A stretch of 64,000 nucleotides of DNA from Pseudorhodoferax sp. Leaf267 (lineage in GTDB: Bacteria; Pseudomonadota; Gammaproteobacteria; Burkholderiales; Burkholderiaceae_C). This document shows positions 17,518 to 36,969 of this stretch, piece by piece. Position 1 is the first letter of the stretch. Every line of letters begins with the position of its first letter. The DNA lies in assembly GCF_001422405.1 (NCBI RefSeq), contig NZ_LMMV01000001.1:683275-747274 (forward strand). Reading direction: 5' to 3'. Under the pieces are notes generated by a model. It worked only from the letters and a program-made list of their open reading frames with translations, did not search any database and had not been told where the DNA came from. Position numbers and translations under genes: made by a program.

Positions 17518-17551
17518 GCGGGTGTCCTCTGGGGGGTGCGGGTGCTGGTCC

Positions 17552-22181: not shown

Positions 22182-22198
22182 GGTGACGAGCCTTGACC
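22182..22198 (+). repeat. attL: 17-bp direct repeat, displaced ffs 3' end
   Basis: GGTGACGAGCCTTGACC, identical to 36953-36969. The right-hand copy forms the 3' arm of the 4.5S RNA terminal stem. This left-hand copy is the fragment displaced by integration and marks the left boundary of the 14.8-kb element. Confidence 0.85.
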
Positions 22199-22289
22199 AC
22201 GTCAAAATCTTCAGCATATCCTTTGAAATCAACAGCTTACGAAGACTGATATTCCAAAAGTGCAACACCAAAGTGTCACGCGAGAGGCT

Positions 22290-22964
22290 CTATTTTACGA
22301 TTTCAATGAGAGCCCTCGACCACTCTCTTTCCATGCCGAAGAACTGGTAGTTTGGATGGGCTGCCGCCTCGTTCAGAGCGTTGCCAATGACTTCAGCCGC
22401 TCGTGCAGCACTTGGCAGCGAACCGTCTGCCGGGCCGTGCATGACCACTCCGCTAGATAGTTCCGCGTCTAACACGTGGAGAGCTTGGCCAAGGTGCGTC
22501 CTACCGTCGAGAACCACCGCCAGCGTTTCTGCATGAGGCAATTGATCTACAGGCAGCCGGTCGAGAGCTTGCGCATAAAGACGCAGGCGGCCCGCCGCGA
22601 AAGCAGTTCCAAGGCTCGTGCCTGTGAACACTGCGTCTCTGCGTTCGATTGCGACCTTTTTCAGTGTGAAGTGGGCTTCCAAGAACACTGCGCCCTGCAG
22701 CTTTAGGATTCGCCGTATTTCCTCATCCTGAGCTTTTTTAGCGCGTCTGTTTTCTAGGTCGTGCTGCCACGCGACTACTGCGCCGGTAGCGGCAATAGCG
22801 ACAATGGAGCCGACTGCTTGGACCCACGCAGGTGCGTTGATGTGGTCCAACCATCTGGCGATAGTGTTGTACCCCGGTACGATGGCGAGAACGGCGATAA
22901 CTGCAATCAGGACAGCCACGCACATCCATATCCGCTCAAACCAGCTCGTTTCCTTGCTTTCCAT
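22290..22964 (-). CDS. Membrane-anchored protein of unknown function beside attL
   Basis: 224 residues from ATG 22964, which has a good SD (AGAGGGGCGGAG). Two N-terminal hydrophobic segments (about 12-33 and 47-65; the second includes PAWVQAVGSIVAIAATGAVVAW) are followed by a basic linker and a mostly helical cytoplasmic domain of about 150 residues with no catalytic motif I can recognise. It is the outermost gene of the element and the only leftward gene with a strong SD, so it may be an independently acquired cargo gene. Such positions often hold immunity or lysogenic-conversion genes, but nothing in the sequence proves that. Confidence 0.7.
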   Translation of the reverse strand: MESKETSWFERIWMCVAVLIAVIAVLAIVPGYNTIARWLDHINAPAWVQAVGSIVAIAATGAVVAWQHDLENRRAKKAQDEEIRRILKLQGAVFLEAHFTLKKVAIERRDAVFTGTSLGTAFAAGRLRLYAQALDRLPVDQLPHAETLAVVLDGRTHLGQALHVLDAELSSGVVMHGPADGSLPSAARAAEVIGNALNEAAAHPNYQFFGMEREWSRALIEIVK

Positions 22965-23084
22965 CTCCGCCCCTCTTTTCGGGGAAGTGTGCCTTACCTG
23001 CTTTGAAGGTGAGCGAATGTCAAGGTCGAAAAAAGCAGGTGCAGAGCATGGCCAGAAAGCCACGTCCACACCTGCAAACCTATC

Positions 23085-26051
23085 TCACTTCAAAGCCATC
23101 GCATCCATCTGGTTGCTCGGAAAACTACCGTACTTTTCCACGGTCGCATTCCACTGCGGAGTGCCTGCCAGCATCGCCGCCCGCAGCGCAAAGCGCCGGG
23201 TGTCGTTCACCCGCTCTCCCTGCTTGTTGACGTAGGTGGTCATCACGGCCGCCTTGAACCCCTCGGCGTCCCCGCTGGCCACCGCAGCCCATGCTTTCTT
23301 GAACTGGTCCGCACCTCCCACGGAATAGGCGATGTCGGTCATGACTGCCTGTTGGGTGGGGGACATGCGATTCCACAGACCCGGCTGGGCAGCCTCAGCG
23401 GCCCTCTGTGCCCGCTGGGTGTACGTCGGTAGGGTTACCTGCAGCAGCCTGCGGGCCTGGTCCTGCGTGAGCTGGGCGCGGCCCTCGATGACGTCTTGAA
23501 TGCGGTCCTCGGGGACACCAGCACGCTTGAGGTCAGCATCTCGCGTTGCCGCGTTGGCCTTCAGGTTGTAGCCCATCCCCAGGTTGTTGCCGGCATCCTT
23601 CGCGGGGTCCGGGTAGGCCTGCAACACCGTGCCTTCGGCCATCGTGATGAGCGATGCGGCCAGAGATGCCCCGATGGCACCCGGGGATGCGACGGCCTGC
23701 GTGGTGAAGCTCGCAGCAATCTGGGCCGTAAGCTTGTTGTCGACACGGGCCCCACGCTGGCGGACGAACTGCAGGGAGCTGGTGTCCACCGGGCCCAGGG
23801 CCAGGAGTGGAATGGACTTCACCCGTGCCAGCATCTCAGCCTCGCCAGCGGTATGGAGCTTGCCCAGCTCGGCAGCGCCTAGACCCGGTACGCCTACCTT
23901 GCGAATCTTGGCCAGGAGGGGGCCGTGAGCTGCCAGAAAGGCAAGGTCAACCTGGCCGGATCGGACCTGCTTGAAGATGGCCTCGATGCCTGCCTTCTCC
24001 TCGGGGGTCTCGAACATCTTGGTGGACCTCAGCTCCTGCTGCATCTCCTGCAGGGTTTTGGACTCAATGTGACGAATGGCAGAGCCGTTCTGCATGACCA
24101 CCTGGAATCGGCCAGTGTCCCCGGTAGGTAGGAAGTTGACTTGCCAGCCATCGGCCTGACCGACCGACAATCCGGCCCGCTGCTCCTCGGTGACGCGCTT
24201 GGAATAGGCAGACAGCGCCTCCTGCGCGAGCTGGCCACCGGACCCCGCAGGCACCTTCACGGCAATGCGGGTGTTGGTGTCGTGAATGAAGTTCTTAGAG
24301 GTCCAGTCCGCCGCGAATTCCTTCAAGGCCTCCGGGGAAGCATTGGGGTTCTTGGCGTAGTAGTCCTGCACAGCGCGGCCGGCCATAGCGGTGACCGCAG
24401 GGGCATTGCTGGGCCGACCGTTGCCACCTGCCCACTGAGGCCACCATGAGGAACCCTGAACGTCCTTGTAGACCGTCGCAAGCTTGTCCTTGAACTCTGG
24501 CGATGCGGCCACGGCAGCCGCTGCGGCCTTGCCTTCGGGGGACACAGCACGGTAGGCGCCCTGGTAGGCCGCTTCCTTGTCGCCACTGCCCAGGCCAGCC
24601 ACATAGCCCCGCATTACTTCGGCCGTGTCACCCTTGAAGTAGATGTCCCGGAATGCGGGGTCTGTGGAGTAGGCCTTGTAGATGGCCGCTGCAGCCTCGA
24701 AGGCGGGCGTAGGAGCCTTCCCGGGCATCGAGGTTACCGTGGTATTGATGAACTGCTCCAGGGCCTGCAGAGGGGCCTTAGCGCCCGTGGCGGACTGTGC
24801 CCGCATCAACTGCTCGGCAGTGGTTGCCACCGTGGCCACATCACCCTGGCGGGCAGCCTCAGCCATGCGCAGGGCATGGGGGCCTAGGTTGGCCTCTAGG
24901 ACTTTCTGCTGGTCTGCAGGATCTAGGAGCCACATCTGGCGGTTGTCGTATGCGGACTGCAACTGTTGGATGCCGAGCTTTTCCACTGCAGCAGCCTGGG
25001 CCCGCTTCCAGTAGGCAAAGGCTTCATCATGGGTAGCGAACGGACCGGACTTGCCCATGTTGGCCCGGATCACATCCAGGGTGATGGATGCCGGGTCATC
25101 CTTAAGCTGTTGCTCCAGCTTGGTCATGGTCACAAAGTTGCGTTGCTGGCTGTCGTCCTTCAGCTTCGCATCGGACAAGGCCTGCGCCTGGTTGCGAGCT
25201 GCCTGGATGTTGTTGGCCAGCTCGGGGTTATGCGCCCCCAGGGAAAGCCCATCGGCCCCCTTGCGGTCGAACAGGTCGAACACACCAGGGTTGCCGCCCA
25301 TCTTGGTAGACAGCGCCGTCAGCGTGGAAAGCAAGCTCCCGGCCGCTTCCTTTTTGGACATACCCAGGGACTCAGCCTGCGGCAGGAGGCGACTGGTGTA
25401 GATGTCGAACAGCGCATCAGGTGGCAGGTCTGCCCGCAGGTTGTCGGTGAAGCTCTGGGCCACCGTGGCGTTACGGGTTTCGTCATGTCGCAGCATCGCG
25501 CGGCGCTGGGCATCGGCACGCACCTGGACCTCAAAGGCGTTGACCTGATTGCCGACCTGCGCAGCCAGGATCGGCACACCTTCCAGGCCGCCCAAGGACT
25601 TTGCGCGGTATTCACCCAGGAAGGCGTCCACATTGAAGCCGGGTTGCTCCTTGGCCTCGTTGTAGGCTGCGAGGCCCTGGTCTTTGGCCTTGATGCCTTC
25701 ACGCTGGCCAAGAGCCGTGGAAAACGCTTCCCGGTAGTGCTTGCCGAGCGCCGGGGGGACCTGAGCTGGCGTAGGGTTGCCCGCGAACTCCATCGCTGAC
25801 TTGCCGGTCATATCCAGGGCATCGGCCTGCTGCTGGGCCAGTGCGTTGACCTCTGCCCGTTGTGCTTCGATCTGGGCTTGCTCCAGTTGCATGGAGCTGG
25901 CCGCGTAGCGCTGCAAAGAGGGGTTCAGTTCGGAAAGGCCACGGATGAGGCCTTCCATTTCGTGATTGGGCGCAGGGGCCTGAATGCCCCAATTCTGCTG
26001 AGTGGCTACGACACGATCAAGGACCGGGCCGCGCTGGTTGCTGGTTGCCAT
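23085..26051 (-). CDS. Ejection/internal-virion-like protein with C-terminal GH24-like lysozyme domain
   Basis: 988 residues, mostly Ala/Gln-rich helices typical of podovirus internal core or ejection proteins. The last 190 residues or so (from about 802) resemble phage lysozyme (GH24): AEGTVLQAYPDP with Glu near 806 as the expected acid, then GNNLGMGYNLK where most relatives have G..TIGYGhN, and a closing RRFALRAAML helix. The usual catalytic Thr is therefore not in place, so activity is uncertain. It is last in a run 28654-26703-26384-26051 with short gaps. In phages such proteins cross the cell wall during DNA entry. Finding one without capsid or tail genes is odd. Confidence 0.7.
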   Translation of the reverse strand: MATSNQRGPVLDRVVATQQNWGIQAPAPNHEMEGLIRGLSELNPSLQRYAASSMQLEQAQIEAQRAEVNALAQQQADALDMTGKSAMEFAGNPTPAQVPPALGKHYREAFSTALGQREGIKAKDQGLAAYNEAKEQPGFNVDAFLGEYRAKSLGGLEGVPILAAQVGNQVNAFEVQVRADAQRRAMLRHDETRNATVAQSFTDNLRADLPPDALFDIYTSRLLPQAESLGMSKKEAAGSLLSTLTALSTKMGGNPGVFDLFDRKGADGLSLGAHNPELANNIQAARNQAQALSDAKLKDDSQQRNFVTMTKLEQQLKDDPASITLDVIRANMGKSGPFATHDEAFAYWKRAQAAAVEKLGIQQLQSAYDNRQMWLLDPADQQKVLEANLGPHALRMAEAARQGDVATVATTAEQLMRAQSATGAKAPLQALEQFINTTVTSMPGKAPTPAFEAAAAIYKAYSTDPAFRDIYFKGDTAEVMRGYVAGLGSGDKEAAYQGAYRAVSPEGKAAAAAVAASPEFKDKLATVYKDVQGSSWWPQWAGGNGRPSNAPAVTAMAGRAVQDYYAKNPNASPEALKEFAADWTSKNFIHDTNTRIAVKVPAGSGGQLAQEALSAYSKRVTEEQRAGLSVGQADGWQVNFLPTGDTGRFQVVMQNGSAIRHIESKTLQEMQQELRSTKMFETPEEKAGIEAIFKQVRSGQVDLAFLAAHGPLLAKIRKVGVPGLGAAELGKLHTAGEAEMLARVKSIPLLALGPVDTSSLQFVRQRGARVDNKLTAQIAASFTTQAVASPGAIGASLAASLITMAEGTVLQAYPDPAKDAGNNLGMGYNLKANAATRDADLKRAGVPEDRIQDVIEGRAQLTQDQARRLLQVTLPTYTQRAQRAAEAAQPGLWNRMSPTQQAVMTDIAYSVGGADQFKKAWAAVASGDAEGFKAAVMTTYVNKQGERVNDTRRFALRAAMLAGTPQWNATVEKYGSFPSNQMDAMALK

Positions 26052-26063
26052 GGGAAAGGGGTT

Positions 26064-26384
26064 CTAAAGGCCGTGGCCGGATGGATTGATGACGATGGCG
26101 CAGAGCATGGGCGCAGGGTCTAGGACCGCTTCATGCGTGCATGCGGTGGCCGTTAGAACTACGTGGTCCGCGATGGGGCACCAGGCGTTGAAGCTGGCCA
26201 TAGGGTGCTGAGGGGGTCTGCATGCGACCTGGGCCTTATCTCCCGGCCGGACACCCGGGAAGGGCACTACAGCCACCGACAGCAGGGGCAGGCCGTCCGA
26301 GGTGTGTGGATTGGGGGCGTAGGGCTCCCATTGCACGACCTTGCAGACAGCAGCCCCAGCGTTCAGGGTGTCAAGGCTGGCCAT
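26064..26384 (-). CDS. Small phage-type protein of unknown function
   Basis: 106 residues, starting at ATG 26384 inside the 3' end of the preceding gene (14-bp overlap) and ending 12 bp before the 988-residue protein. No recognised domain. It is Pro/Val/Ala rich with four cysteines (AVCK, VACR, AWCP, TACTHE) and has no signal peptide. Tight packing with its neighbours is the main support that it is real. Confidence 0.6.
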   Translation of the reverse strand: MASLDTLNAGAAVCKVVQWEPYAPNPHTSDGLPLLSVAVVPFPGVRPGDKAQVACRPPQHPMASFNAWCPIADHVVLTATACTHEAVLDPAPMLCAIVINPSGHGL

Positions 26385-26703
26385 TCGGCTTGGCGGCTAC
26401 CGGAGGCGTAAAGACCGGACGGCGGAATACGGGCTCTCCTAGACCGAACTCCACTTCATCGCCTGGCTTTGGCGGCAGCTCCATCGGCGTTTCGGGGCGG
26501 GGCCGCCCATAAGCATCGAGCCACTCGGCCGGCACGTTGATGGGAAGCTGGCCGGCGTAAGAGGGGCCGTGGTGGTAGTGAGTTCTGGTCAGGCCCACAT
26601 GATTGGCCTTGGCGCGGCTTGGATAGGTGGTCTCCCAAGGTGTGACGAGGCCTGTAGCAGGAGGAAGGGCAGAGCCTGGAATGGCTTGATTGATAACGGG
26701 CAT
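26371..26703 (-). CDS. Small proline-rich phage-type protein of unknown function
   Basis: 110 residues, Pro/Gly rich (PMELPPKPGDEVEFGLGEPVF), with no membrane segment or known motif. It starts at ATG 26703 after a weak purine stretch (GAAAGAA) and overlaps the next gene by 14 bp. The operon position between the 86-residue gene and the ejection-like protein suggests a virion-related or morphogenesis role, but this is inference only. Confidence 0.6.
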   Translation of the reverse strand: MPVINQAIPGSALPPATGLVTPWETTYPSRAKANHVGLTRTHYHHGPSYAGQLPINVPAEWLDAYGRPRPETPMELPPKPGDEVEFGLGEPVFRRPVFTPPVAAKPNGQP

Positions 26704-26789
26704 GGTGTTCTTTCAGGAAATGGAAACGAGGAAATGAAAAAGCCCAGCGATTGCCGGGCCTGAGGTGCGAAGTGCGTGGGTGATGAGGG

Positions 26790-27050
26790 TCACATCTGGG
26801 TCTGCTTGGCCTGGTCTGCGACATAGGCGCGGTAGCGGTGCAGCAGGTCCGTCATGGGGCTGGAAAAGTTGACATCAAGGTAGCTCAGGGCTGACTTAAA
26901 GGCCTTGGACTGCACTGTCTCCGCCCAGGTCTTCACGGCAGCCTCGTGCCCCTCGAAGCCCGACGACAGGCACCAGCGATGGATGAATGTCTCCAGCCGG
27001 ACCACGGGGTCAGCGTGAAGCTTCTTGAAGGTGCCGCGACCTCTGGTCAT
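26790..27050 (-). CDS. Small phage-type protein of unknown function
   Basis: 86 residues from ATG 27050, which overlaps the stop of the preceding gene (ATGA), a coupling that fixes this start rather than longer in-frame extensions. Basic N-terminus (TRGRGTFKKLH), then an amphipathic helical body with aromatic residues (LETFIHRWCL, LLHRYRAYVAD). No recognised family. Confidence 0.65.
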   Translation of the reverse strand: MTRGRGTFKKLHADPVVRLETFIHRWCLSSGFEGHEAAVKTWAETVQSKAFKSALSYLDVNFSSPMTDLLHRYRAYVADQAKQTQM

Positions 27051-27895
27051 TGGTTGACGCCAGCGGCGCGGGCTTGCTTCGCTGCGTACTCGCGGGCCAG
27101 GTGCTGGAAGGGCTTCACGTCTCGGGCAACAGTCAGCGAGGAGATAGCGCCTTGCAAGCCACGCTGGCCGCGACACCATGCGAAGAACTCATCAGCCTGC
27201 GCAGGGCTCACGCCTTCGGCAGCCACCGAGCGCACCACGGCGTCCCGGAACATCCCGAAGGCCGACTGCACATGCTCCTGAGCCCGCGCGGGGTCCATGC
27301 CACCCTCACGGGCCAGCCGGTCAGCCGCTGCATCCAGGTCGGTGCCGTCAAGGCATGCCAGGGTTGCTACCGCTACCGTCTTGTCGTAGACCGGTTGCGG
27401 CATGTCTGCAATGTCGGTCTCGAAGGCCTGCCACTCGGCATCGTCGAAGTGGTCAGCGGATGGCAGCTTGTCGGCCTCAGGGGGCGTGAGGGGGTCCGGG
27501 GTGGCCGTGGTGGCCGTGGTGGCCTCAGACTTTCCCAGGCTGGCAACGTCCATAAAACCGCCATGGCCATCGGCTCGCACAGCCCCCATGCGCACGGCAT
27601 TGGCGACTGAGGTGCGCATGCCTTCCACCACCACGGTTCCGCCGTTGTACGGCTGGAAACTCGCCATCACGCCGGGGCGGCTGGCCTGGTCTTCATAGGC
27701 GTTGTAGGTGGTGCGGCCCTTGGCTTCGGTCTCGCCCGTGCGCATGTTCACGGACAGCGTGGGGCTATTGAAGCGGCCTACGGTGGAGAAGGCCTCGGCC
27801 ATGGGGTTGTGGACTGCTGCGTCTTCCTGGCCGTGGGTGACGCGGGTCACGCCGCCATGTTGGGAGATGTTGCCGGATTGGTATTGGATGGTCAT
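27047..27895 (-). CDS. Phage-type protein of unknown function
   Basis: 282 residues. The N-terminal third is polar and beta-rich (MTIQYQSGNISQHGG...), followed by a Thr/Pro/Ala linker (about 120-140) and a helical C-terminal half (PAQADEFFAWCRGQRGLQGAI). The two-part build is reminiscent of virion assembly or scaffold proteins, but I recognise no family. ATG 27895 has no SD. The 3' end is coupled by a 4-nt overlap to the 86-residue gene. Confidence 0.6.
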   Translation of the reverse strand: MTIQYQSGNISQHGGVTRVTHGQEDAAVHNPMAEAFSTVGRFNSPTLSVNMRTGETEAKGRTTYNAYEDQASRPGVMASFQPYNGGTVVVEGMRTSVANAVRMGAVRADGHGGFMDVASLGKSEATTATTATPDPLTPPEADKLPSADHFDDAEWQAFETDIADMPQPVYDKTVAVATLACLDGTDLDAAADRLAREGGMDPARAQEHVQSAFGMFRDAVVRSVAAEGVSPAQADEFFAWCRGQRGLQGAISSLTVARDVKPFQHLAREYAAKQARAAGVNQ

Positions 27896-27922
27896 TGGTG
27901 GTGGTGCGGGAAGTGAAGGGGA

Positions 27923-28654
27923 TCAGTGAGAGACAGGACTGGCAGCCCCAGTGATGACGAAGGGCGCGCGGTGCGCCTCATAGGTGGCCTGGCGGCGCTT
28001 GGCCTCGGCCTCGGCCTTGTCGGTGGCCGCTACGGCGATGGCCGCCAGGAGACCGGACAAGGTATTTCGGATCGTGGCTCCAAGGGAGTTGAGCGCCGCC
28101 ACGCTGGGGCGTGTGGGATAGCCGCGCTTGCTGGTGCGAAGTGCCGATGCCGACATATTGCGGGGCCGTGGGGCCAGCCGTAGGACCGCCTGGCTGATGA
28201 GGTGGTTTTCGGAATCCACCGTGGGCAACCTGGTGGCCTTGCGGCTGATGTAGAGGGCCACGGCTGCCACCTCGGCTAGGACGGTGATAGCTGCGACGCC
28301 TGCATCTGCCAGTCGGCAGACCTCATAGTCAAGGCCTGGCTTGTTGGTCCCGCCCTTGTGCTGGACGTACAGGCCATTGATGAACGACACCCCGGACAGG
28401 ATGCCGGGATGGTTCTGGTTATCAGCGAACAGGGCTAAGACCTCGGCTCTTTCGAGCGCCCAAGCCTTCGGGTCAGTCTTGGGGGCCAGGGCATGGCCGC
28501 GCCGCTTGTGCATGTCGTAGTGGTGGCCGCAGAGCTTGCGAAAACCGGAGGTCTTGCCTCCGCAGCCGGGGACGCTGCAAACTTGCTTGGCGGACAGTTC
28601 GCGTGCCCTCGCGGCCGCAGCACCGGTGCCGGTGGGGTGTGTGTTGCTGTACAT
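27923..28654 (-). CDS. Zinc-motif phage-type protein
   Basis: 243 residues. Near residues 26-53 there is a compact Cys/His cluster (CSVPGCGGKTSGFRKLCGHH) with a CxxxxC...CxxH pattern followed by YDMHKRRG, a zinc-binding motif seen in several small phage proteins. The rest is helical, with an Ala-rich segment (AAITVLAEVAAVALYISRK) that may touch membrane or pack as a helix. ATG 28654 has no SD. It is the first gene after the terminator at 28843-28890, so it should have its own promoter in the gap. Confidence 0.6.
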   Translation of the reverse strand: MYSNTHPTGTGAAAARARELSAKQVCSVPGCGGKTSGFRKLCGHHYDMHKRRGHALAPKTDPKAWALERAEVLALFADNQNHPGILSGVSFINGLYVQHKGGTNKPGLDYEVCRLADAGVAAITVLAEVAAVALYISRKATRLPTVDSENHLISQAVLRLAPRPRNMSASALRTSKRGYPTRPSVAALNSLGATIRNTLSGLLAAIAVAATDKAEAEAKRRQATYEAHRAPFVITGAASPVSH

Positions 28655-28842: not shown

Positions 28843-28890
28843 AAAACAAGACCCAGCTCCTACAGCTCTATAGGGCGAGGGTCTTGTTTT
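28843..28890 (-). terminator. Strong intrinsic terminator after the helicase-like gene
   Basis: Perfect 12-bp inverted repeat AAAACAAGACCC / GGGTCTTGTTTT with a 24-nt loop. On the minus strand the 3' arm is followed by a T-tract. It overlaps the stop codon of the helicase-like gene by two bases and separates the terS-like/helicase unit from the leftward genes. The A/T-rich arms make it possibly bidirectional. Confidence 0.85.
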
Positions 28891-30781
28891 ATGTGGGCTT
28901 GAACCCGTACAGTTCCGCCGTGGACCTCACCAGTGAGCGGCCGTCTAAGGCCCAACCATGCAAAGCGAGGTTGAGCTTTCCAACTGCACGGCTGAACGCA
29001 TGGCCATCGCTCCGGCCTGGGCCTATCTGCATGGCAGCCTTCAGCTTGATGCTGGAGACTTTCGTTATGGCTGCGTCAAGGGTCCGAAGCTGTCCGAGGA
29101 TGCGCCCCAGCATCTCATCCGCAATGTTCGAGGATGAGGACTTCTCTAAGTACAGCGGGTCGGGGAAGAACCACTGTGCCCTAGGCATGACCTTATCTAG
29201 GATGGTCTTCAGCGTAGCGCTGCGGTGGATAAGGTGCAGGCGCATCGGGTTGGCCAGGCCGTTGTTCAGGTTCCTGCAGGAGCCCCGTGATGCTGCCTGC
29301 ATGACTGCACCAGCAATCTCCGACTCCATGATTCTGTTCACCATGTCGTAGGGCGTCGATGCAGCCATGTTGCCCATCTGCCCCCGCGCTGCTGCGCTGA
29401 GGTCGATATGGCTACGGTGCAGACATCCCACCAGGATGACACTCTGGCAATGCTCTTTCATGTTCAGGCCCAGGTGATCCCCCCAGGTCAGCCACTCGAA
29501 ACGCTTGCGCGGCGCAGTGTCCCCCTGGCCGGCCGGTGCTCTCTCCTCCAGGTCGAAACCTTCGGCTGTAAGGGCTTCGCGCAGGCGCTTGGCCACGTCC
29601 AGGCCGTCCCTAGGAATGAAGTTGACCAGGAGGAAGCACCGGGCCGGGTCTTCCAGCGCCTCACGCCGGATGATGGCTAGGACTTCCTTGATGACCTTCG
29701 CATTCTCGACACCAGCCTGCTTCAGGGTCTGCTCGACGGCACTGCGGGAGCCCGAGGCCATGATCTGATGAACCTCGACCTGCTCAAAGGACTTGAGGGA
29801 GTCCAGCTCGAAATCCTTCATGTGCTTGATGCTGGTGTCCAGGTTCACAAGGTCCGAGATGGGGCCTGATGCGTCCAGCACGACTACATTGCGCAGGTGC
29901 TTGGAAACGGCCTGACGGATGGAAATGATGCCGTCCCCCTGGGCTGTCTTTAGGACCTGAAGCTGCGACATGGCCACACTGAGGAATTCCTCCAGGGTGT
30001 GCCGATACTGCCCGAGGTCGCGGCTGCATCGCTGGATCAGGGACTGCCATGCGTCGATGGTCTCCTGGTCCCGTTCGGGCAGCCACAGGGGCCGCCCTCG
30101 GTTCTCGGCATCGCCAGCCTCATCCATGAATTCAAGCTGGGTTTCGATCAGGTCTGTGCAGTCGCTGACGAACTGGAACAGCGAGGCCAGGTGATGGTCC
30201 TTGGAGGTCTTCGCCATGCCCCCTAGGAGGCTTTCAGCCAGCTTGAGGCGACGCACAGCGAACGACCACGAGTCAGAGACGATCAGCGCCTCATCGTAGA
30301 GGCACAGGGCCCGGTCAACACCCTGGTGCTGCCCGAACAGCTCGAAGTCTCGCCCAGACCTCACGCGGGAATGCGTCACGAGTTGATAGAGCCGGTCAGC
30401 GTCCCCGGTAGATGGAACACTGGCAGTCAACACCGAATGCTTGATGCCGATGTCCCCAACGGGCACGCCCTTGGCAATCAGGCCCTTGTAGGTGTCGCAC
30501 AGGCTCTCCACCTTGCTTGCTGCGATGGACACCGGGATACGGTAGCCCAGCCGGTGTAGGGCCGTGATGAAGGCAATGATGCTGGCCGATTTGCCCATGC
30601 CTGCCGGGATCGGGAAGGCCTTGCGGCCGTGCTCCGTGCCAGCGCAGTAGCTCGCGCAGGTGTCCAGGAGCTGATAAAGGGCGGCCTTGTGCATGCTGCT
30701 CAGGACGTTGCGGCGCTCTAGGTCTGCCTTGAGGATCGCGAATGCTGTTTGGGTCAGCGTGAGGGTGTCGATGGTGGTCAT
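28889..30781 (-). CDS. SF2 helicase-like ATPase of the element
   Basis: 630 residues. Motif I PAGMGKSAS (59-67), a Walker B-like LYDEAL (161-166), VVVLDAS (299-305, like the motif III LDAT of some DNA helicases) and a motif VI-like QAASRGSCR (495-503) suggest an SF2 DNA helicase. No nuclease or primase signature is visible. In satellites and plasmids such proteins often drive replication. A large-terminase identity was considered because a TerS-like gene precedes it, but the motif VI pattern favours a helicase. ATG 30781 has no SD. It is 122 bp downstream of the TerS-like gene on the same strand. Confidence 0.65.
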   Translation of the reverse strand: MTTIDTLTLTQTAFAILKADLERRNVLSSMHKAALYQLLDTCASYCAGTEHGRKAFPIPAGMGKSASIIAFITALHRLGYRIPVSIAASKVESLCDTYKGLIAKGVPVGDIGIKHSVLTASVPSTGDADRLYQLVTHSRVRSGRDFELFGQHQGVDRALCLYDEALIVSDSWSFAVRRLKLAESLLGGMAKTSKDHHLASLFQFVSDCTDLIETQLEFMDEAGDAENRGRPLWLPERDQETIDAWQSLIQRCSRDLGQYRHTLEEFLSVAMSQLQVLKTAQGDGIISIRQAVSKHLRNVVVLDASGPISDLVNLDTSIKHMKDFELDSLKSFEQVEVHQIMASGSRSAVEQTLKQAGVENAKVIKEVLAIIRREALEDPARCFLLVNFIPRDGLDVAKRLREALTAEGFDLEERAPAGQGDTAPRKRFEWLTWGDHLGLNMKEHCQSVILVGCLHRSHIDLSAAARGQMGNMAASTPYDMVNRIMESEIAGAVMQAASRGSCRNLNNGLANPMRLHLIHRSATLKTILDKVMPRAQWFFPDPLYLEKSSSSNIADEMLGRILGQLRTLDAAITKVSSIKLKAAMQIGPGRSDGHAFSRAVGKLNLALHGWALDGRSLVRSTAELYGFKPT

Positions 30782-30903: not shown

Positions 30904-31278
30904 TCAGTCCGTCAGGAACGGCACTTCCAGGCCCAGGATGGGGCCTGCGGGCGCTTGGGAAGCGAGCATGTCAATCAGGTGCCTGGTCTCGGAGAGGACG
31001 CCCAGGGAGGGCTCCGGGGCCCTTGCCGCCTCGATGGTCCGGGTTATGTACAGAGACCTCAGCTCCTCCAGTTGCACCACTTCCAGCTCAGTCAGCGGGC
31101 GGTAGCTCAAGGCCGACTGCTGCCCCAGGAAGGTCCGGGCTGCCATCAGCAGCGTCATGGGCGTGGTAGACCGCTTGCGGCTCAGCTCCTCCTGCAGGCG
31201 CTGGCACACGAGGCCGTGAAGGTGTTCTAGGCTGGACCACGGGGCCATGCCGTTGGTAGGGGGTGTCGTCATCATCAT
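30904..31278 (-). CDS. Small terminase (DNA-packaging)-like protein
   Basis: 124 residues, all helical. The region LHGLVCQRLQEEL...TPMTLLMAARTFLGQQ fits the layout of short podovirus packaging proteins (LHxxV..L..R...ATA.ELS.ARQFLKDN), the T7 gp18-type small terminase family. The match is by pattern only. If right, the element can mark its own DNA for packaging by a helper phage, as PICI TerS proteins do. It begins with three consecutive ATG codons (31278 first) after a weak CAAGAA. It is divergent from the serine recombinase across a 226-bp promoter region. Confidence 0.5.
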   Translation of the reverse strand: MMMTTPPTNGMAPWSSLEHLHGLVCQRLQEELSRKRSTTPMTLLMAARTFLGQQSALSYRPLTELEVVQLEELRSLYITRTIEAARAPEPSLGVLSETRHLIDMLASQAPAGPILGLEVPFLTD

Positions 31279-31403
31279 TTCTTGAGTCGTGGTGGTGGTT
31301 TGGACAGGAAGCCACAGCGAGGTATGCCTGGCTGGGTCCCACAGCGGCGCACGGGGGCCGGTGGTGGTTTGATGGGGATTCGTGGTGTGGTCATGGCTGG
31401 TGC

Positions 31404-31498
31404 CTATACCGAAAGGGTCTGAGGAAAAAGGGGTGTGCTCCCCTCTGAGGAGGAGTGCAGAAAACAGCTATACCAAAACCACTAGGTAACGGTATAGT
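31404..31498. promoter_or_regulatory. CTATACC repeats before the serine recombinase (operator or res subsites)
   Basis: CTATACC occurs at 31404-31410 and 31468-31474, and inverted (GGTATAG) at 31491-31497, the last two forming a dyad with 16 bp between arms. A -10-like TATAGT (31493-31498) overlaps the inverted copy only 6 bp before the recombinase ATG, so binding there would block transcription. A GGTGGTGGTTTG repeat also lies upstream. Compatible with autoregulation or with a resolution site. Confidence 0.5.
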
Positions 31499-31504
31499 CG
31501 GGGC

Positions 31505-32113
31505 ATGACAAAGAAGCCCTGCAAAGTCGCCATCTATGCCCGCGTGAGCACCACGGACCAGACCTGCGAGAACCAGCTACGGGACCTCAGGGCCGCCGCA
31601 GACCGCCAGGGGTGGACAGTGGTTCAGGAGTTCATCGAGGCGCCTATCAGCGGCTCGAAGGCCCGTGACCAGCGCCCACAGCTTGATGCCATGCTCAAGG
31701 CCGTGTCAGCCCGAAAGGTGGACATGGTCATGGCGTGGTCCGTAGACCGCCTGGGGCGCTCCATGCTGGACCTGATGAACACCCTGCAGGCTGTCCGGGA
31801 GAAGGGCGCAGGGATGTACCTCCACCAGAACAACCTAGACACCACCACCAAGGATGGCCGGGCCATGTTCGGGATGCTCGGCATCTTTGCGGAGTACGAG
31901 CGGGAGATGATCCAGGAACGGGTACGGGCAGGCATGGCCAGGGCGAAGGCAAACCCCACGCCTGGCAAACAGGCCATCGGGCGGCCCAAGGTCCAGCAGG
32001 GCATCGAGGACAGCATCAAGGAACTGAGGTCCCAAGGTATGGGCATCCTCAAGGTAGCCAGGACACTGGGGTGTGGTGTCTCCACCGTCCAGCGTGTGAT
32101 GGCTGCTGTCTGA
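31505..32113 (+). CDS. Serine recombinase (resolvase/invertase family)
   Basis: 202-residue small serine recombinase. The N-terminal catalytic domain has YARVSTTDQ with nucleophile Ser15, the arginine-bearing SVDRLGRSM segment and the E-helix region (FAEYEREMIQERVRAGMARAKA). The C-terminal helix-turn-helix (GMGILKVARTLGCGVSTVQRVM) binds DNA. It may resolve multimers of the excised element or invert a segment. Because a separate tyrosine integrase exists, it is probably not the integrase. There is no clear SD; a -10-like TATAGT sits 6 bp before the ATG. Confidence 0.92.
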   Translation: MTKKPCKVAIYARVSTTDQTCENQLRDLRAAADRQGWTVVQEFIEAPISGSKARDQRPQLDAMLKAVSARKVDMVMAWSVDRLGRSMLDLMNTLQAVREKGAGMYLHQNNLDTTTKDGRAMFGMLGIFAEYEREMIQERVRAGMARAKANPTPGKQAIGRPKVQQGIEDSIKELRSQGMGILKVARTLGCGVSTVQRVMAAV

Positions 32114-32622
32114 GCTAGGGTCTACCTGTCTGGCAAGGGCCGGGGTATGGTGCCTCCACAGCCCCCGTAAAGGGCCTCATTGCCAGCATTCACGCTGCGA
32201 TGCGGGTGCATCCTGGTGCCTCATCAGGCAGGCGCTGGGACGAGGTGGGTAGCCTTGGGAGAGTGAGGGCTGGCAGCCGACTGGCCTTGGGGAACTGAGG
32301 GGGCCATGGGGGAATCTGGGCCGTTGGGCTTATCAGATACCCCCTCGGAAAAGTTCGCCGGAAATCGCCGTCTTCCACCCGGTGGAAGATGCTCGGCCTA
32401 ATAGTCCGACAACCGCTCCGAGTGCGCCAGGCCCCCTCGGTCACCTTCACGCCGCCTAAACACCCACCTTTGCCCCAGGGTCCCCCCTCATCCTGATGAG
32501 GACACCTAGAGGCTTCCTCAGGCTACCTAAGGACGGCATCAGGCTGGCTGCATCATGGCTGGGGGTATGAACACAGAGGCATAGCCCACCTTGTCTAGGC
32601 TGCACCTGCGGGCTGTCCTCGC
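32114..32622. other. Gene-poor stretch with two palindromes
   Basis: About 510 bp with no supportable gene. It contains CTTCCACC-C-GGTGGAAG (32372-32388, 8-1-8) and CCTCATC-CT-GATGAGG (32486-32501, 7-2-7), plus two copies of CCCCCTCGG near 32340 and 32430. These could be regulatory or replication/packaging sites. Confidence 0.5.
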
Positions 32623-32799
32623 TCACTCATGAGACACAGGCCTCAGCCACTCAGAGGCCGCCTCAGCAGGCCCCAGCTCCCTCAGCCGCTCATCGGCCCA
32701 AAGCTCCCCCGCGACCTCCTCAAGCTGCTCAGGGTCCACCGTGCGCCACTGGCGCTGCAGGCGGTGGGCACATGCTGCAATCCAGAGTTCGCGGTCCAT
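32623..32799 (-). CDS. Small hypothetical protein
   Basis: 58 residues from ATG 32799 (or 70 from TTG 32835); neither has a clear SD. The sequence is amphipathic and Glu/Leu/Trp rich (WRTVDPEQLEEVAGELWADERL), ends with ASEWLRPV, and reads like a folded helical protein rather than a shadow frame. No family recognised. Palindromes at 32888-32935 lie upstream and could control it. Confidence 0.45.
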   Translation of the reverse strand: MDRELWIAACAHRLQRQWRTVDPEQLEEVAGELWADERLRELGPAEAASEWLRPVSHE

Positions 32800-33139
32800 G
32801 GCATGTACTGTACGCTCATCCAGTGGTGATGCCAAGGGCTGCTGAGGCGGCGAAGGGGGGCCCGTGCCCTCGGGGAGGCCGTGCTAGTGAACAGCCGCTG
32901 TTCAGGGGGTGGTTTTAGTGTCACATCGTGTGACAGAACCTGCCAGGTTGCGCCAGCCAGGCCTTGCGGTCGAACTACCAGCCGGGTAAGACCCAAGCCG
33001 CTGGCGCAAGCACATTAATCAGTGACGGCCATCATCAAAGTGGGGGATAGAGCCTCAACTTTCGGCCCTTTGGCGGGATGGCTCATCGTGACCAAGCGTG
33101 GCAGTATGGTGGCCCCACATCTTCTTAGAAGGATTCGCA
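32800..33139. other. Non-coding stretch with a cluster of perfect inverted repeats
   Basis: No supported gene. Three perfect inverted repeats lie within 122 bp: TGAACAG-CCG-CTGTTCA (32888-32904), TGTCACA-TCG-TGTGACA (32919-32935) and TTGCGCCAGC ... GCTGGCGCAA (32948-32957 with 33000-33009, 42-nt loop holding GGGT-AAG-ACCC). The first two are both 7-3-7 with centres 31 bp apart, about three helical turns. Candidate operator pair, origin or packaging site. Confidence 0.6.
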
Positions 33140-33475
33140 ATGACTCCCGCAGGCCGTCTCGTCGTCTCCATGCTTGTTGCCTTCAGCCCATCTGCATTCG
33201 CATGTGAAGGAACTGTAGAACTTGCTGGAGGTCCGGTAGGTTGTCGAAGTTATGAGGGAGCAACTAGAACAATCAACTTCCCTAGAAGCGAATGTAGTTT
33301 TCAGCGCATGCCAACAGTGAATATCTCAACCGCTACAGGCTCAGCAAACGATAGCCTTGAGGTGAACGTCCTAAGCAGGACACGCACAAGCTTCACAGTA
33401 AAGATCACCACCGCTGGCAGGAACAGAAACGAAGTCTGCGCACCCACAAGCTTTAGCTGGTCCGCCTCGGAATAA
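33140..33475 (+). CDS. Secreted small protein, H-type-lectin-like
   Basis: 111 residues from ATG 33140, which has a good SD (AGAAGGA). The signal peptide MTPAGRLVVSMLVAFSPSAFA is followed by Cys; the site is not a perfect lipobox. The mature part is beta-rich: FPRSECSFQRMPTVNIS, LEVNVLSRTRTSFTVKI, ending SFSWSAS. Spacing of the PxVxxS, SFTVKI and WSA elements resembles the H-type lectin (discoidin-like) domain. Its codon use is less GC-rich than the host genes, suggesting recent acquisition. Probably a cargo gene modifying the host surface; function not established. Confidence 0.55.
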   Translation: MTPAGRLVVSMLVAFSPSAFACEGTVELAGGPVGCRSYEGATRTINFPRSECSFQRMPTVNISTATGSANDSLEVNVLSRTRTSFTVKITTAGRNRNEVCAPTSFSWSASE

Positions 33476-33856
33476 GTTCGTACCTGTGGGCCGTCGGCGA
33501 CGGCTCCAGAACCCTTCAGGCCGCCTCAAGCTCCACAGGGGTTGCCACTCCCTGCCCGCGAGCCTGAAGGCCGCCAGGAATCCCTCCAGGGCTTCCAGGG
33601 GCTGTGCATAGCCTCACGCCCCCTGCAGGACCTCCTGGCGCCCCCAGGCCGCCCAGTGCCCGCTATGGGACCCGCAGGCGTCTGCGGCCTTCGCCTTGTT
33701 TGCCCGACGACGAATCTTGGCTAGCAGAGCCTTGCGCCGCACACGAGGCGTCAAGCTGCTGATCGTTCGATAAAAGCCCGTTGCGACTCGCAAATCGAGC
33801 GATCAGCTTCATTTTCGATGTTAGTGTTGCAGTGTTCACAACTTTCAGGGATGAAA
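33476..33856. other. GC-rich non-coding or decayed stretch with a dispersed repeat
   Basis: About 380 bp with no supported gene. It holds the repeat TCAGGCCGCCTCAAGCTC (33516-33533), which recurs with one mismatch at 34107-34124, and several CAGG/CCTGG-rich inverted segments. Composition flips between very GC-rich (33480-33700) and AT-richer (after 33760). Confidence 0.5.
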
Positions 33857-34042
33857 ATGAAGCGTTTCAAAATCTCGGACTTTGCTTTTCTTGTCATTTT
33901 TGTGGTCAGCGGTTTGTCGCTGACTTTGAAGCTTGAGCAGAATCTGCCAACATCATGGACAATGGTTGAAGCCATCGCGCCCGGCGTATTTCTTTTTTCA
34001 GCGAACCTTTGGCGCGTGCTGGAAAGATTCTCGCCACACTGA
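33857..34042 (+). CDS. Small predicted membrane protein
   Basis: 61 residues from ATG 33857, which has CAGGG 6 nt upstream. It has a basic N-terminus (MKRFKISD), one clear TM segment (FAFLVIFVVSGLSLTL) and a second weaker hydrophobic stretch (APGVFLFSANLW). AT-richer codon use than surrounding sequence. No family recognised; the small size makes the call uncertain. Confidence 0.4.
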   Translation: MKRFKISDFAFLVIFVVSGLSLTLKLEQNLPTSWTMVEAIAPGVFLFSANLWRVLERFSPH

Positions 34043-34106
34043 CCTTTACCGGCTGATTGGACCTGGCGCCGACCAAGCAGATTACTGCGGAAGCCTTGAT
34101 AGCCCC

Positions 34107-34124
34107 TCAGGCCGCCTGAAGCTC
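34107..34124. repeat. 18-bp dispersed repeat (17/18 match to 33516-33533)
   Basis: TCAGGCCGCCTGAAGCTC here and TCAGGCCGCCTCAAGCTC at 33516-33533. The copies are 591 bp apart in direct orientation within the small-cargo region, so recombination between them could delete 33857-34042 and neighbours. Confidence 0.7.
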
Positions 34125-34319
34125 TCCCGGATGACTTATTAGTTCCTCCGGGTCTTCGCATTCCCGAGCTACCGCCAATAATTCCTCGGCGGTGGGGAAA
34201 TAGATGTCCTCGGCAGTTTCCAGGATTGGCATCCATTCAGGATAGTAGGTCCTGCGGTAAGCCTCGGTCATCTTGAAGTTCGTCGGGCCTTCGGGAGTCA
34301 TCACTGCAAAAATAATCAC
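34107..34319 (-). CDS. Small hypothetical protein
   Basis: 70 residues from GTG 34319, with AGGA about 11 nt upstream; ATG at 34301 is an alternative start. It is acidic (ETAEDIYFPTAEELLAVARECEDPEEL) and has no membrane segment or known motif. Its last codons and stop lie inside an 18-bp repeat shared with 33516-33533, so the C-terminus may have been reshaped by recombination. Confidence 0.4.
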   Translation of the reverse strand: MIIFAVMTPEGPTNFKMTEAYRRTYYPEWMPILETAEDIYFPTAEELLAVARECEDPEELISHPGELQAA

Positions 34320-34410
34320 GGGTTCTATTCCTGTTAGATGCCGTGCACTGTGCAGCGGCGCCGCTAATGTGCCTCAGAAAACACACGGCGAAACAGGCGT
34401 AACGATATAT

Positions 34411-34483
34411 TTGAACCCCAATAGACTTCTGTGATACAGTCCCAAATTGTCGCTCCAGACATAATAGTCTCATTACTGAGACT
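34411..34483. promoter_or_regulatory. Putative promoter and operator-like dyad before the 75-residue membrane protein
   Basis: TTGAAC (34411-34416) and TACAGT (34435-34440) are spaced 18 bp, a plausible weak sigma-70 promoter reading rightward. A perfect 7-4-7 dyad AGTCTCA-TTAC-TGAGACT (34466-34483) lies just downstream, where a repressor could act. No repressor gene is recognisable in the element. Confidence 0.4.
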
Positions 34484-34543
34484 GTCCCACTAGGCGGACC
34501 GTTTACTAGCCGTTACACTGCCCTCCAGTTGCATGGGGGAAGC

Positions 34544-34771
34544 ATGGAATTTGTTGGAAGCTCTCTGCGTGTCTGCGGACTGCTGTGCGTCAGCTTCGGG
34601 CTGCTGCGCATCGTGGCCGGGGCTGTTGACCCGCTCACCCAGGGCGCATGGGCGCTAGGGCTGCTCATGGCGGCCATGGGGGCTGGTGCCCTCATGCTGG
34701 GTACAGCACTCATCAGGAAGGCCGCTGCGACGACCGAAAGGGCACCGGTGCCCGCCGCACTGGCTGACTAG
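34544..34771 (+). CDS. Small two-helix membrane protein
   Basis: 75 residues from ATG 34544, preceded by GGGGGAAGC. Two TM helices (VCGLLCVSFGLLRIVAGAV; GLLMAAMGAGALMLGTALI) with a basic, Ala/Pro-rich C-terminus (RKAAATTERAPVPAALAD). The layout is holin-like (two TM helices, charged tail), but no lysis cassette is adjacent, so a different small membrane role is equally likely. Confidence 0.5.
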   Translation: MEFVGSSLRVCGLLCVSFGLLRIVAGAVDPLTQGAWALGLLMAAMGAGALMLGTALIRKAAATTERAPVPAALAD

Positions 34772-34772
34772 C

Positions 34773-35120
34773 TCAGGTACTTCGCATCGGCCGGGGAGAG
34801 GCCGGGGAGAGGCCGGGGGCCTCATCCGGCTGGCCTGTGGTGGCATCGAAGGGGTCCGGGGTGGCTGCAGCTTCCTGCTCGTTGAACCAGCGGCGGATGC
34901 TGCACGGGTAGGAGAGGACGCCAGGAATTTCCTGTCCAACGGGAAAATCTTGGACAAGCCACAGTGCGTCCGGGACTTCGTTCTTGGTGCAGATGCCTGG
35001 GAAAGCCGCAGCCACCCACTCGGAGAACTTCTGGTAGCTCGGGCGGCCCCGGCTGTCGGTCTTGACCACGGGGCGGTTCGTGTCCACCTTGCCGTGCATA
35101 AGGGCCACGCCTACTTCCAA
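34773..35120 (-). CDS. Small phage-type protein downstream of the integrase
   Basis: 115 residues from TTG 35120; GTG 35108 (GGAAG nearby) or ATG 35099 are alternatives. The sequence KFSEWVAAAFPGICTK...SIRRWFNEQEAA looks folded and real. No family recognised. It is in the same frame as the integrase, and the frame stays open back to the integrase stop codon, so it may have arisen as, or be expressed as, a read-through extension. The 3' end contains an 11-bp tandem GGCCGGGGAGA repeat (34789-34819). Confidence 0.55.
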   Translation of the reverse strand: MEVGVALMHGKVDTNRPVVKTDSRGRPSYQKFSEWVAAAFPGICTKNEVPDALWLVQDFPVGQEIPGVLSYPCSIRRWFNEQEAAATPDPFDATTGQPDEAPGLSPASPRPMRST

Positions 35121-35177
35121 CCAGAGAACCCGTTGTTCCTCTGCGGTTGCCTTGATGCGGCCCCAGGAGCGTTGGCC

Positions 35178-36848
35178 CTATTTCGGAGCTCGGTAGACCC
35201 TGGGCAGCTCCGGGAACCTCAATGCCTCCACAGCTTTCCTGAGGGTCTCGGGCTTGTGATGGGTGTAAACCCTGGCCCCCGTGCTGCCCTTGGCCTCATG
35301 GCCGCAAATGCGGTCTATGACCGTCTCGGATACGCCAGCCTCCACCATCTCACTGCGCACCGTGTGCCGGAACGAGTGGAAGTCATGGACGAGGCCCAGC
35401 TCGTTCCGGTACGCACCGAACCAATCCGAGAAGTAGCCGCCTGGCTTGTTCTTGCGCAGGGGCAGGGCGGGCCACAACCGGCCCCCAGGGGGCACAGACG
35501 CCACGTAGTCCAGGAAGCCAAGGCGCACCAGCTCACTGTGGATTGGGACCGTGCGAACCCCGGCAGCAGTCTTGATCTGTTGGCCGTCCCCCTCATCGGT
35601 CAGGGACATCATCGGCACTGGGCCAGCCGGATCGATATCCGCCACCGTGAGCTGGGCCAGCTCGCTCACCCGTGCGCCACTGTGGAGAGCGAGGAGGGGA
35701 ATCCAGTACGCGGCATCCTTGCCAGCTCGCCACGCTGTCGGCAGCGAGTAGGACGTGAACAGGTCATCGGCAAACAACTTGGCCAATTGCTCCTGTGACC
35801 ACGGTTTGCGCCTGGTGGTGGTCGCGGCTTCGATCTTCAGGCCGACCCAGGGATTCCTAGGGATGACCTCAAGGTCCTGATACGCGTACTTCAACAGTGA
35901 CTTCACCCAGGTCAGCCTGTCGCGCGCAGTCTTGCTGGCCGTGCCCTTGGCCATGAGGTGAGCCCGGAATGCATCACCCTCATGTCGAGCCAGCTTGGCT
36001 AGGTCTGGGTTACCGGTGAACTCCTCGAACAGCACGAGGGCCCGCTCGCAGGCCTTCACGGCATCCTCGGAAACCTTCTTGCTGGCCTTCCAGCGGGTGA
36101 AAACTTCCCGGAGCTTCATCGGCTTCGCTGGGGCGGCCTGAGCGTCCCTGTGGGGCTCTGGGGGCGTCAGGACCACTGCACCAGCATCGCGGCGCACCAC
36201 GGCCTCAACAGCCTGCCGGTAGTGCTGCAGGGCCAGCATCAGCGCTTCGCGTGCCCCGGGTGTTGCTACGTCGAAGGCAAGGCCCAGCTTCCTCGCTTCT
36301 GCTTCCACAAGAGGAAGGACCCCGGCCCTGTAGCGGGTGATGAGGGATGCAGCAGCGTCGGCATCCCTGTACAGGTTCAGCTCTGCCAGCGTTGCAGCCT
36401 CCTTGCGGCTTAGGCCTTCAAGGGCAGAGCGGGGAGCGTGTGGCTTGGGGGCGCCCCCGGACAGCGTGAGGACTTGCAGCGGGCCAGCGGTGGCCGCCTG
36501 CAGCTCCCGAAGGATGTTCGGGGCCTCGGGGTCGTCGCGTAGCCAGTCGTCCTGCCTGAGCACGGTAGCACCCACGCGCTGTGCCAGTTCAAGTGCCAGT
36601 TCGGGGGTGATGACTTCCAGGCGTTGCGGGTTCAGTTCCAGCCGCTTGGCCTCGAACTGTTGGAACAGCTCGGCGCGCCTCACGGAAGCCTTGAGGTTGG
36701 CCTCTCGCACGTTGCTGGTGCCTAGGGATTCGATGATGCGAGAGCGACCTAATGCGGCCCTGAGGTCCATGGGGACCACCACGCGCAACTGGTAGACGCC
36801 AGCCCGCAAATGCAGGCCAGGAAACTTAGCCATTGGATCAACTTTCAT
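35178..36848 (-). CDS. int: Tyrosine integrase of the element
   Basis: Site-specific recombinase, 556 residues from ATG 36848 (or 551 from ATG 36833). It has an N-terminal DUF6538-like domain (FPGLHLRAGVYQLRVVVP), a SAM-like core-binding domain and a catalytic domain. The catalytic residues are visible: Arg in LHSGARVSELAQL, HxxR in HSFRHTVRSEM, the later His in ICGHEAKG and the nucleophile Tyr in ARVYTHH. A longer in-frame extension to 37058 would cross ffs and is rejected. It lies beside the ffs-proximal attachment site, as expected for an integrase that targets the 3' end of this RNA gene. Confidence 0.94.
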   Translation of the reverse strand: MKVDPMAKFPGLHLRAGVYQLRVVVPMDLRAALGRSRIIESLGTSNVREANLKASVRRAELFQQFEAKRLELNPQRLEVITPELALELAQRVGATVLRQDDWLRDDPEAPNILRELQAATAGPLQVLTLSGGAPKPHAPRSALEGLSRKEAATLAELNLYRDADAAASLITRYRAGVLPLVEAEARKLGLAFDVATPGAREALMLALQHYRQAVEAVVRRDAGAVVLTPPEPHRDAQAAPAKPMKLREVFTRWKASKKVSEDAVKACERALVLFEEFTGNPDLAKLARHEGDAFRAHLMAKGTASKTARDRLTWVKSLLKYAYQDLEVIPRNPWVGLKIEAATTTRRKPWSQEQLAKLFADDLFTSYSLPTAWRAGKDAAYWIPLLALHSGARVSELAQLTVADIDPAGPVPMMSLTDEGDGQQIKTAAGVRTVPIHSELVRLGFLDYVASVPPGGRLWPALPLRKNKPGGYFSDWFGAYRNELGLVHDFHSFRHTVRSEMVEAGVSETVIDRICGHEAKGSTGARVYTHHKPETLRKAVEALRFPELPRVYRAPK

Positions 36849-36952
36849 GCTCGTTGTTCGAGAGAAAGTGACACGCTGGTGTGCAACGTCCGGCAGCTCT
36901 AAGTCTTTGATTTCGCTTAAGTTGTTGAGAACAAAAGGAAATGTTGTAAAAA

Positions 36953-36969
36953 GGTGACGAGCCTTGACC
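36953..36969 (+). repeat. attR: 17-bp direct repeat at the ffs 3' end
   Basis: GGTGACGAGCCTTGACC, identical to attL at 22182-22198. On the minus strand it reads as the 3' arm of the 4.5S RNA terminal stem. On the element side, the ffs minus-strand transcript runs on from this arm into TTTTTAC. Confidence 0.88.

Follow-up and report, generated by a model that had tools for sequence, protein, structure and literature searches.

An element inserted at the 4.5S RNA gene of Pseudorhodoferax carries a T7 gp15-type ejection protein and may be a satellite of T7-like phages

The window analysed here is a stretch of 64,000 nucleotides from Pseudorhodoferax sp. Leaf267 (contig NZ_LMMV01000001.1, positions 683,275 to 747,274). 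It contains an integrated element of 14.8 kb that an earlier note had described as satellite-like and inserted at the 3' end of ffs, the gene for the 4.5S (signal recognition particle, SRP) RNA of the host. The element is bracketed, as that note had claimed, by a perfect 17-bp direct repeat, GGTGACGAGCCTTGACC, which was found only at 22182 and 36953 when both strands of the window were checked. The distal copy of the attachment core (22182–22198) duplicates the ffs 3' end exactly, and the ffs-side copy (36953–36969) is the last 17 nucleotides of the gene. Because Rfam places a full-length ffs on the minus strand at 36953–37049 (RF00169, 59.7 bits, model positions 1–97), the right-hand copy coincides with the exact 3' end of ffs, and the gene remains complete after integration. 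Identity between the two copies stops exactly at the edges of the 17 bp. When the ffs 3' region was compared with the approximately 22 kb to its left, the longest exact match was 17; in 300 first-order Markov controls it averaged 9.6 and never exceeded 12. The G+C content is ≈0.69 outside the element and 0.55–0.66 inside it.

The same site was inspected in five congeners, from each of which 19.9 kb was fetched. Allowing up to three mismatches, each had a single copy of the core, located at ffs, and the distance from the end of the aligned hybrid-kinase region to ffs was about 390–750 bp. The ffs site is empty in all five, and none had the repeat at both positions without the element. Because of the repeat pair and these empty sites, the element was taken as an insertion of 14,771 bp; its left edge is defined by the repeat alone, and the intergenic sequence there could not be aligned with the congeners. 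The view that ffs is an unusual target did not survive: insertion at ffs is already on record for a prophage of pneumococcus (PMC8637289), and type I-F3b CRISPR-associated transposons use the gene as well (PMC11406308).

Adjacent to the right-hand repeat lies the expected tyrosine integrase (35178–36848, minus strand), with matches to DUF6538 and Phage_integrase; its start codon was inferred, and the open frame extends to 37058. An integrase of an ffs-specific branch, described below, inserted the element at the 3' end of ffs via the 17-bp core.

Towards the other end, the element encodes a protein of 988 residues (23085–26051, minus strand), which had been noticed earlier as an ejection-like lysozyme protein. 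Homology, gene context and fold identify it as an internal virion (ejection) protein of the T7 gp15 type that ends in a phage-lysozyme domain. The Pfam phage lysozyme match at the C-terminus was just below threshold (20.3 vs. 22.3 bits). Full-length relatives (35% and 30% identity) occur in two elements at tRNA-Ser genes, one in an Aquabacterium metagenome-assembled genome (MAG) and one in the proteobacterial MAG YF3. All three members of this family share residues E806 and D815, whose spacing we take to fit the catalytic Glu/Asp pair of T4 lysozyme. When a structure model of the protein was searched against the PDB, only two entries matched at E ≤ 0.001, both of them T7 core proteins and one titled as the T7 gp15–gp16 core complex. 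Because the predicted local distance difference test score (pLDDT) of the model was 64 and its TM-scores to the T7 proteins were low (0.14–0.27), this match counts as support rather than proof. A viral structure library gave 33 matches at E ≤ 0.001, several of them named internal virion proteins.

The link between the 988-residue family and T7 gp15 came via a phage contig, G116:C270, in which a genome search had found a C-terminal match. By profiles this contig is T7-like, with matches to portal, scaffold, capsid, tail-tube, gp13, gp14, gp16 and large terminase (TerL), and further matches to RNA polymerase, DNA polymerase, exonuclease and primase-helicase; TerL and the DNA polymerase are each in two frames. 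A gp15 profile of the type found in Limnohabitans phage YIMV22061 had no match in this contig. Between its gp14 and gp16 lies a protein of 978 residues, which aligned with the 988-residue family over 796 columns (probability 99, E 3.5e-18, 21% identity). The protein thus has both the full-length homology and, through its relatives, the position between gp14 and gp16 of the T7 gp15 family. T7-like structural genes also flank the relatives of the 988-residue protein in all 11 IMG/VR viral contigs in which relatives were found, and the order, where neighbours were found, is tail tube B, gp13, gp14, the relative itself and gp16. These viral relatives were reached only by an alignment of the three family members; single-protein IMG/VR scans and tblastn searches of INPHARED phages with the 988-residue protein and with a 630-residue protein of the element gave no matches, and tblastn of INPHARED with the relative from the phage contig found nothing. 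Among 399 genomes of the order, the 988-residue type was found only here and, partially, in G116:C270.

A gp15-type gene was found in 8 of the 15 elements examined, including the one studied here. Three of the eight carry the 988-residue type; a second type (phrog_23202, internal virion protein) is present in four elements at ffs, namely those of genome G020, Polaromonas and two Variovorax. The second type occurred once among 299 genomes of the family, inside an ffs element. It is also found in Limnohabitans phage YIMV22061 and Bordetella phage BB8 (both Autographiviridae), whose gp15 proteins share 41–47% and 33–34% identity, respectively, with two element proteins. Unlike the elements, these are whole T7-like phage genomes, and they had no tblastn match to the 988-residue protein.

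When nine second-type gp15 proteins were placed in a tree, the G020 protein grouped with that of a T7-like phage from IMG/VR (support 100/99), the Polaromonas protein with that of YIMV22061 (92/92), and the two Variovorax copies with each other. A single clade of element proteins was rejected by the approximately unbiased test (p-AU 2.8e-6, or 1.9e-4 without a half-length row), and the supported branches require two or more switches between element and phage, in either direction. In the integrase tree, the four elements concerned sit together in a single branch (nine rows, support 99). On the evidence of these trees, the second gp15 type has been exchanged with T7-like phages.

The branch of ffs-specific integrases in Burkholderiales was defined by a survey in two steps. 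Searching the 299 family genomes at E ≤ 1e-30 yielded 17 integrase matches, spread over 13 genomes. Six of these adjoin ffs (our own and five others), and for nine of the other 11 the locus retrieved includes a tRNA gene. The six ffs integrases were then aligned and used for one scan of a collection of 84,980 genomes, which yielded 45 loci. The ffs motif was found 160–353 bp upstream of the integrase match in 22 of them and ffs was identified by Rfam in three more, so that 25 of the 45 are at ffs. In a quick tree of 58 integrase rows (five short rows were dropped), 21 ffs-labelled rows and the three Rfam-identified rows formed one branch of 24 (SH-aLRT 96); six tRNA-Ser rows grouped separately, as did the integrases from T7-like phage contigs. 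The element studied here belongs to the ffs branch, is inserted at the ffs 3' end and has the core repeated at its far end.

A second copy of the target end (ffs or tRNA) was present 3.7–16.9 kb downstream in 11 of 17 sequences examined; in three of the remaining six there were only matches of 11–12 bases, and in the other three the target was not located. Besides our own, the elements delimited in this way measure 11,638 bp (G020), 16,880 bp (Polaromonas), 11,747 bp (Variovorax KK3), 13,064 bp (Aquabacterium, tRNA-Ser), 13,571 bp (Piscinibacter), 13,320 bp (Pelomonas UHG3, tRNA-Ser), 14,764 bp (Curvibacter), 12,910 bp (Roseateles), 6,665 bp (V. boronicumulans) and 3,749 bp (AER3). The first six of these together with our own average ≈13.6 kb, which is about one third of the length of two phage records (40.7 and 41.6 kb). 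In the Curvibacter (L036/L037) and Roseateles (L038/L039) loci, the repeat at the far end is not a short core but 120 bp (the whole of ffs) or 98 bp (most of it). In a Limnohabitans locus (L066), there is a second copy of the ffs motif, where Rfam reports no full gene.

None of the 15 elements gave a match at E ≤ 1 to profiles of the portal, scaffold, capsid, tail tubes A and B, gp16, TerL and RNA and DNA polymerases, while profiles from the same phage proteins did find portal, capsid, tail tube, TerL and RNA polymerase in phage contig L120/L121, which served as a positive control. This agrees with the earlier observation that capsid, portal, tail and large terminase genes are missing, and sets the elements apart from complete or recently decayed T7-like prophages. 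The 45 loci, each taken from shortly upstream of the integrase and totalling 387,214 bp, contained nothing that matched the portal, scaffold, capsid, tail-tube, gp16, TerL, small terminase (TerS) or DNA polymerase profiles at E ≤ 0.01, and the matches beyond gp13, gp14 and gp15 were a fragment of T7-like RNA polymerase (L076) and a marginal tail-fibre match (E 0.009). Capsid and tail genes adjacent to the element in its relatives, which would have pointed to simple prophage decay, were thus not seen; many of these loci end ≈10 kb past the integrase, some at a contig end, so that the gp15 counts are lower bounds and the absences partial. For 112 proteins of nine elements, the best 25 of 75 PHROG and 25 of 36 Pfam families include integrases, resolvases, internal virion proteins, antirepressors and defence-type genes, and none of those listed is a capsid, portal, tail or terminase family. 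Ten further large proteins scanned per library gave no such match above cut-off; a single Phi6_P8 match had 17.8 bits against a cut-off of 27. The YF3 element has gp13 and gp14 besides gp15. In the element studied here, gp15 is the one recognised, intact virion protein. By these T7-type profiles it is a bounded, integrated element without its own capsid, portal and tail set, as in satellites generally.

The remaining genes of the element lie on the minus strand, except for a serine recombinase of the resolvase/invertase type (31505–32113, plus strand), the assignment of which was confirmed by PF00239 (Resolvase, E 1.4e-45). Its relatives occur in 11 of the 45 scanned loci and in the G020 and Polaromonas elements. 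The gp15 block is oriented differently in the Aquabacterium element; inversion by the recombinase was considered, and no convincing inverted repeats were seen. Next to the integrase lies a protein of 115 residues (34773–35120), weakly related to a 245-residue protein of a tRNA-Ser element, G693 (30% over 84 residues, E 8e-5). The TerS-like gene proposed earlier is a 124-residue candidate for a T7-type small terminase (30904–31278), and the evidence for it is divided. Its match to PF11123 (15.2 bits, E 0.023) is below the cut-off of 27.5, and a T7-type TerS profile gave 6.3 bits, above the best of 1,000 shuffles (4.6 bits). In pairwise comparisons with five phage candidates, the score was reached by 6, 2, 171, 333 and 457 of 500 shuffles.

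The helicase-like ATPase (630 residues, 28889–30781) fared less well: it had no curated family match above cut-off, its helicase-like motifs were seen by eye, and its structure model (mean pLDDT 38) was unusable. Matches were found in 2 of the 399 genomes of the order, our own and G089 (30%). The G089 protein, the only relative found (locus L009, contig G089:C38, 2–3110) adjoins another tyrosine integrase near serS; the locus lies at a contig start, and no tRNA was found there. A protein of 243 residues with a Cys/His-rich N-terminus (27923–28654; weak HNH match, E 0.016) is followed by one of 282 residues (27047–27895), which has a relative in the Piscinibacter ffs element (37% over 203 residues, E 4e-27). 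By eye, the 243-residue protein resembles the product of the gene preceding that relative, with no BLAST match between the two. Two open reading frames of 110 (26371–26703) and 106 residues (26064–26384) lie upstream of gp15, the latter directly so, and a 259-residue protein (22290–23069; weak phrog_33632 match, E 1e-4) lies between gp15 and the distal repeat.

For most of this cargo, comparison with the other elements revealed no relative. The expectation that the same gene order would be found elsewhere held in part: the integrase, serine resolvase and gp15 are shared in several genera, while the whole gene set is not conserved. A gene order common to all ffs elements was looked for and rejected; other than the integrase, the genes that recur are chiefly those for the resolvase and gp15 and some small ones. 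Defence-type cargo in the relatives comprises SMODS with S_4TM, Abi_C, type I restriction and a type IV-A CRISPR helicase. In a Polaromonas MAG (L100, genome G688, 16122–17926), a SMODS nucleotidyltransferase and an S_4TM effector, resembling a cyclic-oligonucleotide-based antiphage signalling system (CBASS), directly follow the ffs-element integrase, and a UmuC-like polymerase is also inside the element. The 13.3-kb tRNA-Ser element of Pelomonas sp. UHG3 (L107, genome G696) has a type IV-A DinG-like helicase and a CRISPR-associated protein at about 6000–11700, with a repeat-rich stretch that by eye resembles a CRISPR array. An element at tRNA-Ala in an alphaproteobacterial MAG, Micavibrio sp. 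UBA6212 (L076, 12208–18340), contains two gp13-like proteins (one in a 543-residue fusion), a gp14-like frame and the RNA polymerase fragment mentioned above; it is a similar kind of element outside Burkholderiales. At a tRNA-Ser locus of a Burkholderiales MAG (L071, 13812–15581), a protein of 589 residues lies between the integrase and a serine recombinase. It had no PHROG match, and a search of seven proteins showed weak similarity (E 3e-6) of its N-terminus to the gp15 encoded by phage contig L120.

We propose that the element belongs to a group of small integrative elements that act as satellites of T7-like (Autographiviridae-type) phages and bring their own ejection protein, and we put the probability of this at roughly 0.57. 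The more specific proposal, that these elements are a new satellite family that borrows the head and tail of the helper, supplies its own gp15 (with a lysozyme domain in the element studied here), exchanges gp15 with T7-like phages and so pirates genome delivery rather than capsid size, is more tentative, and we hold it at somewhat less than even odds. T7 gp15 forms a periplasmic tunnel. Upon infection by a T7-like phage, the element would excise, be copied and be packaged in helper heads, possibly steered by the candidate TerS. Its gp15 would enter the internal core beside or instead of that of the helper, and would open the peptidoglycan by forming a tunnel, through which a genome about one third the length of the helper's is delivered. 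Exchange of gp15 with T7-like phages may keep the protein matched to the helpers available.

Several observations weigh against this proposal, apart from the low TM-scores noted above. We infer the helper, packaging, excision and induction alike from sequence. The two gp15 types are far apart, since a direct profile comparison of the 988-residue family with YIMV22061/BB8 gp15 was not significant (probability 3); comparison with the gp16 family of the same phages was not significant either (0.1), and neither type's sequence profile reached a T7 chain in the PDB. For the 988-residue type, monophyly of the element proteins was not rejected (p-AU 0.078, with long branches). The gp15 gene of Variovorax KK3 is split in two frames, and the V. 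boronicumulans ffs element, a fifth with the second type, keeps only a remnant. Seven of the 15 elements lack gp15 by the profiles used, four of them with both ends found. The TerS candidate had an E of 5.8 and ranked fourth among all six-frame open reading frames of the 15 elements, which slightly reduces our confidence in the satellite reading, and no other element had a significant TerS match. A promoter-like repeat of phage YIMV22061, recognised by eye, had a near match in one of the 15 elements, not our own. The viral collection yielded seven integrase relatives, all at ≤40% identity, and the five placed in the tree are all outside the ffs branch. That related integrases occur in T7-like phage contigs at all leaves room for an origin by decay.

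According to that explanation, the elements are remnants of temperate T7-like phages with a related integrase, and gp15 is what was left over. The IMG/VR contigs L033 and L113–L117, which are T7-like by eye, contain such integrases (30–40%) near lysozyme, TerL-like and TerS-like genes, with T7-like core proteins in the longer contigs; L033 also matches the gp16 profile and lies beside a flagellar-like host gene, and is probably a prophage. The split and remnant gp15 copies, the RNA polymerase fragment in the Micavibrio element and a weak integrase-like match (E 3e-4) in G116:C270 would also fit decay. However, the elements, unlike these contigs, gave no match to TerL, and every phage integrase included in the tree is placed apart from the element branches. 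Several genera retain the same virion protein in full while lacking the other T7 genes that were looked for, capsid, portal and TerL matches being absent from all 45 loci. The element gp15 proteins are interleaved with those of phages while the element integrases form a branch, and a resolvase and defence-type cargo recur. We therefore consider decay unlikely. The earlier preference for a satellite over a decayed prophage is upheld in part, by the bounded insertion, by an ejection protein without a T7-type capsid set and by relatives in several genera that share some of the backbone, and is weakened by the unconserved gene set and the weak terminase and helicase candidates.

An integrated defence island, in which gp15 made in the cell would spoil the cores of T7-like phages or exclude them and the element would not be packaged, seems to us just as improbable. 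Defence-type genes are found in several related elements, gp15 works inside the particle, where a mismatched copy could poison assembly, and exchange with T7-like phages would equally fit a matched inhibitor. On the other hand, a protein of complete length with conserved lysozyme residues exceeds what a decoy needs, one element retains gp13 and gp14 too, and PADLOC found no match in four scanned proteins of the element. That gp15 is a passenger on an integrative element moved by conjugation or generalised transduction is very improbable: cargo is very mixed over the ffs branch and gp15 is missing from the seven elements noted above, but gp15 was found repeatedly and no relaxase or conjugation family, as would mark an integrative and conjugative or mobilisable element, is among the Pfam matches of ten proteins of the element or among the 25 of 36 families listed for nine elements.

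A 2024 review lists P4-like elements, PICI, cfPICI, PLE, PICMI, VEIMEs and tycheposons as satellite families and notes virulent helpers (PMC11389934). As we understand the PICI/SaPI class, its members share with our element a tyrosine integrase at a fixed site, a size of ≈12–17 kb, the lack of capsid genes and possibly a small terminase; the studied element differs in its T7 gp15-type ejection protein and in its implied helpers, T7-like podophages, and no PICI-specific family is among the library matches listed. P4-like elements, as we know them, are likewise small, with an integrase, and resemble our group in the defence cargo of its relatives. They differ in their capsid-sizing, decoration and alpha-primase families: no P4 alpha, Sid, Psu or Delta is among the Pfam and PHROG matches listed (best 25 families in the group scans). 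Tycheposons and VEIMEs, two marine proposals named in that review, are also proposed phage-satellite families; the hosts here are mostly Burkholderiales. Our literature search, which mostly did not cover subscription journals, found no report that matched a phage satellite with an internal virion or ejection protein or with Autographiviridae.

Known satellites take over the capsid size, packaging or tails of their helpers. If the proposed reading is correct, T7-like phages are suggested as helpers of these elements, which raises the question of why an element with a genome about one third of the helper length would bring its own ejection protein, and DNA delivery would be a further step that phage parasites can capture.

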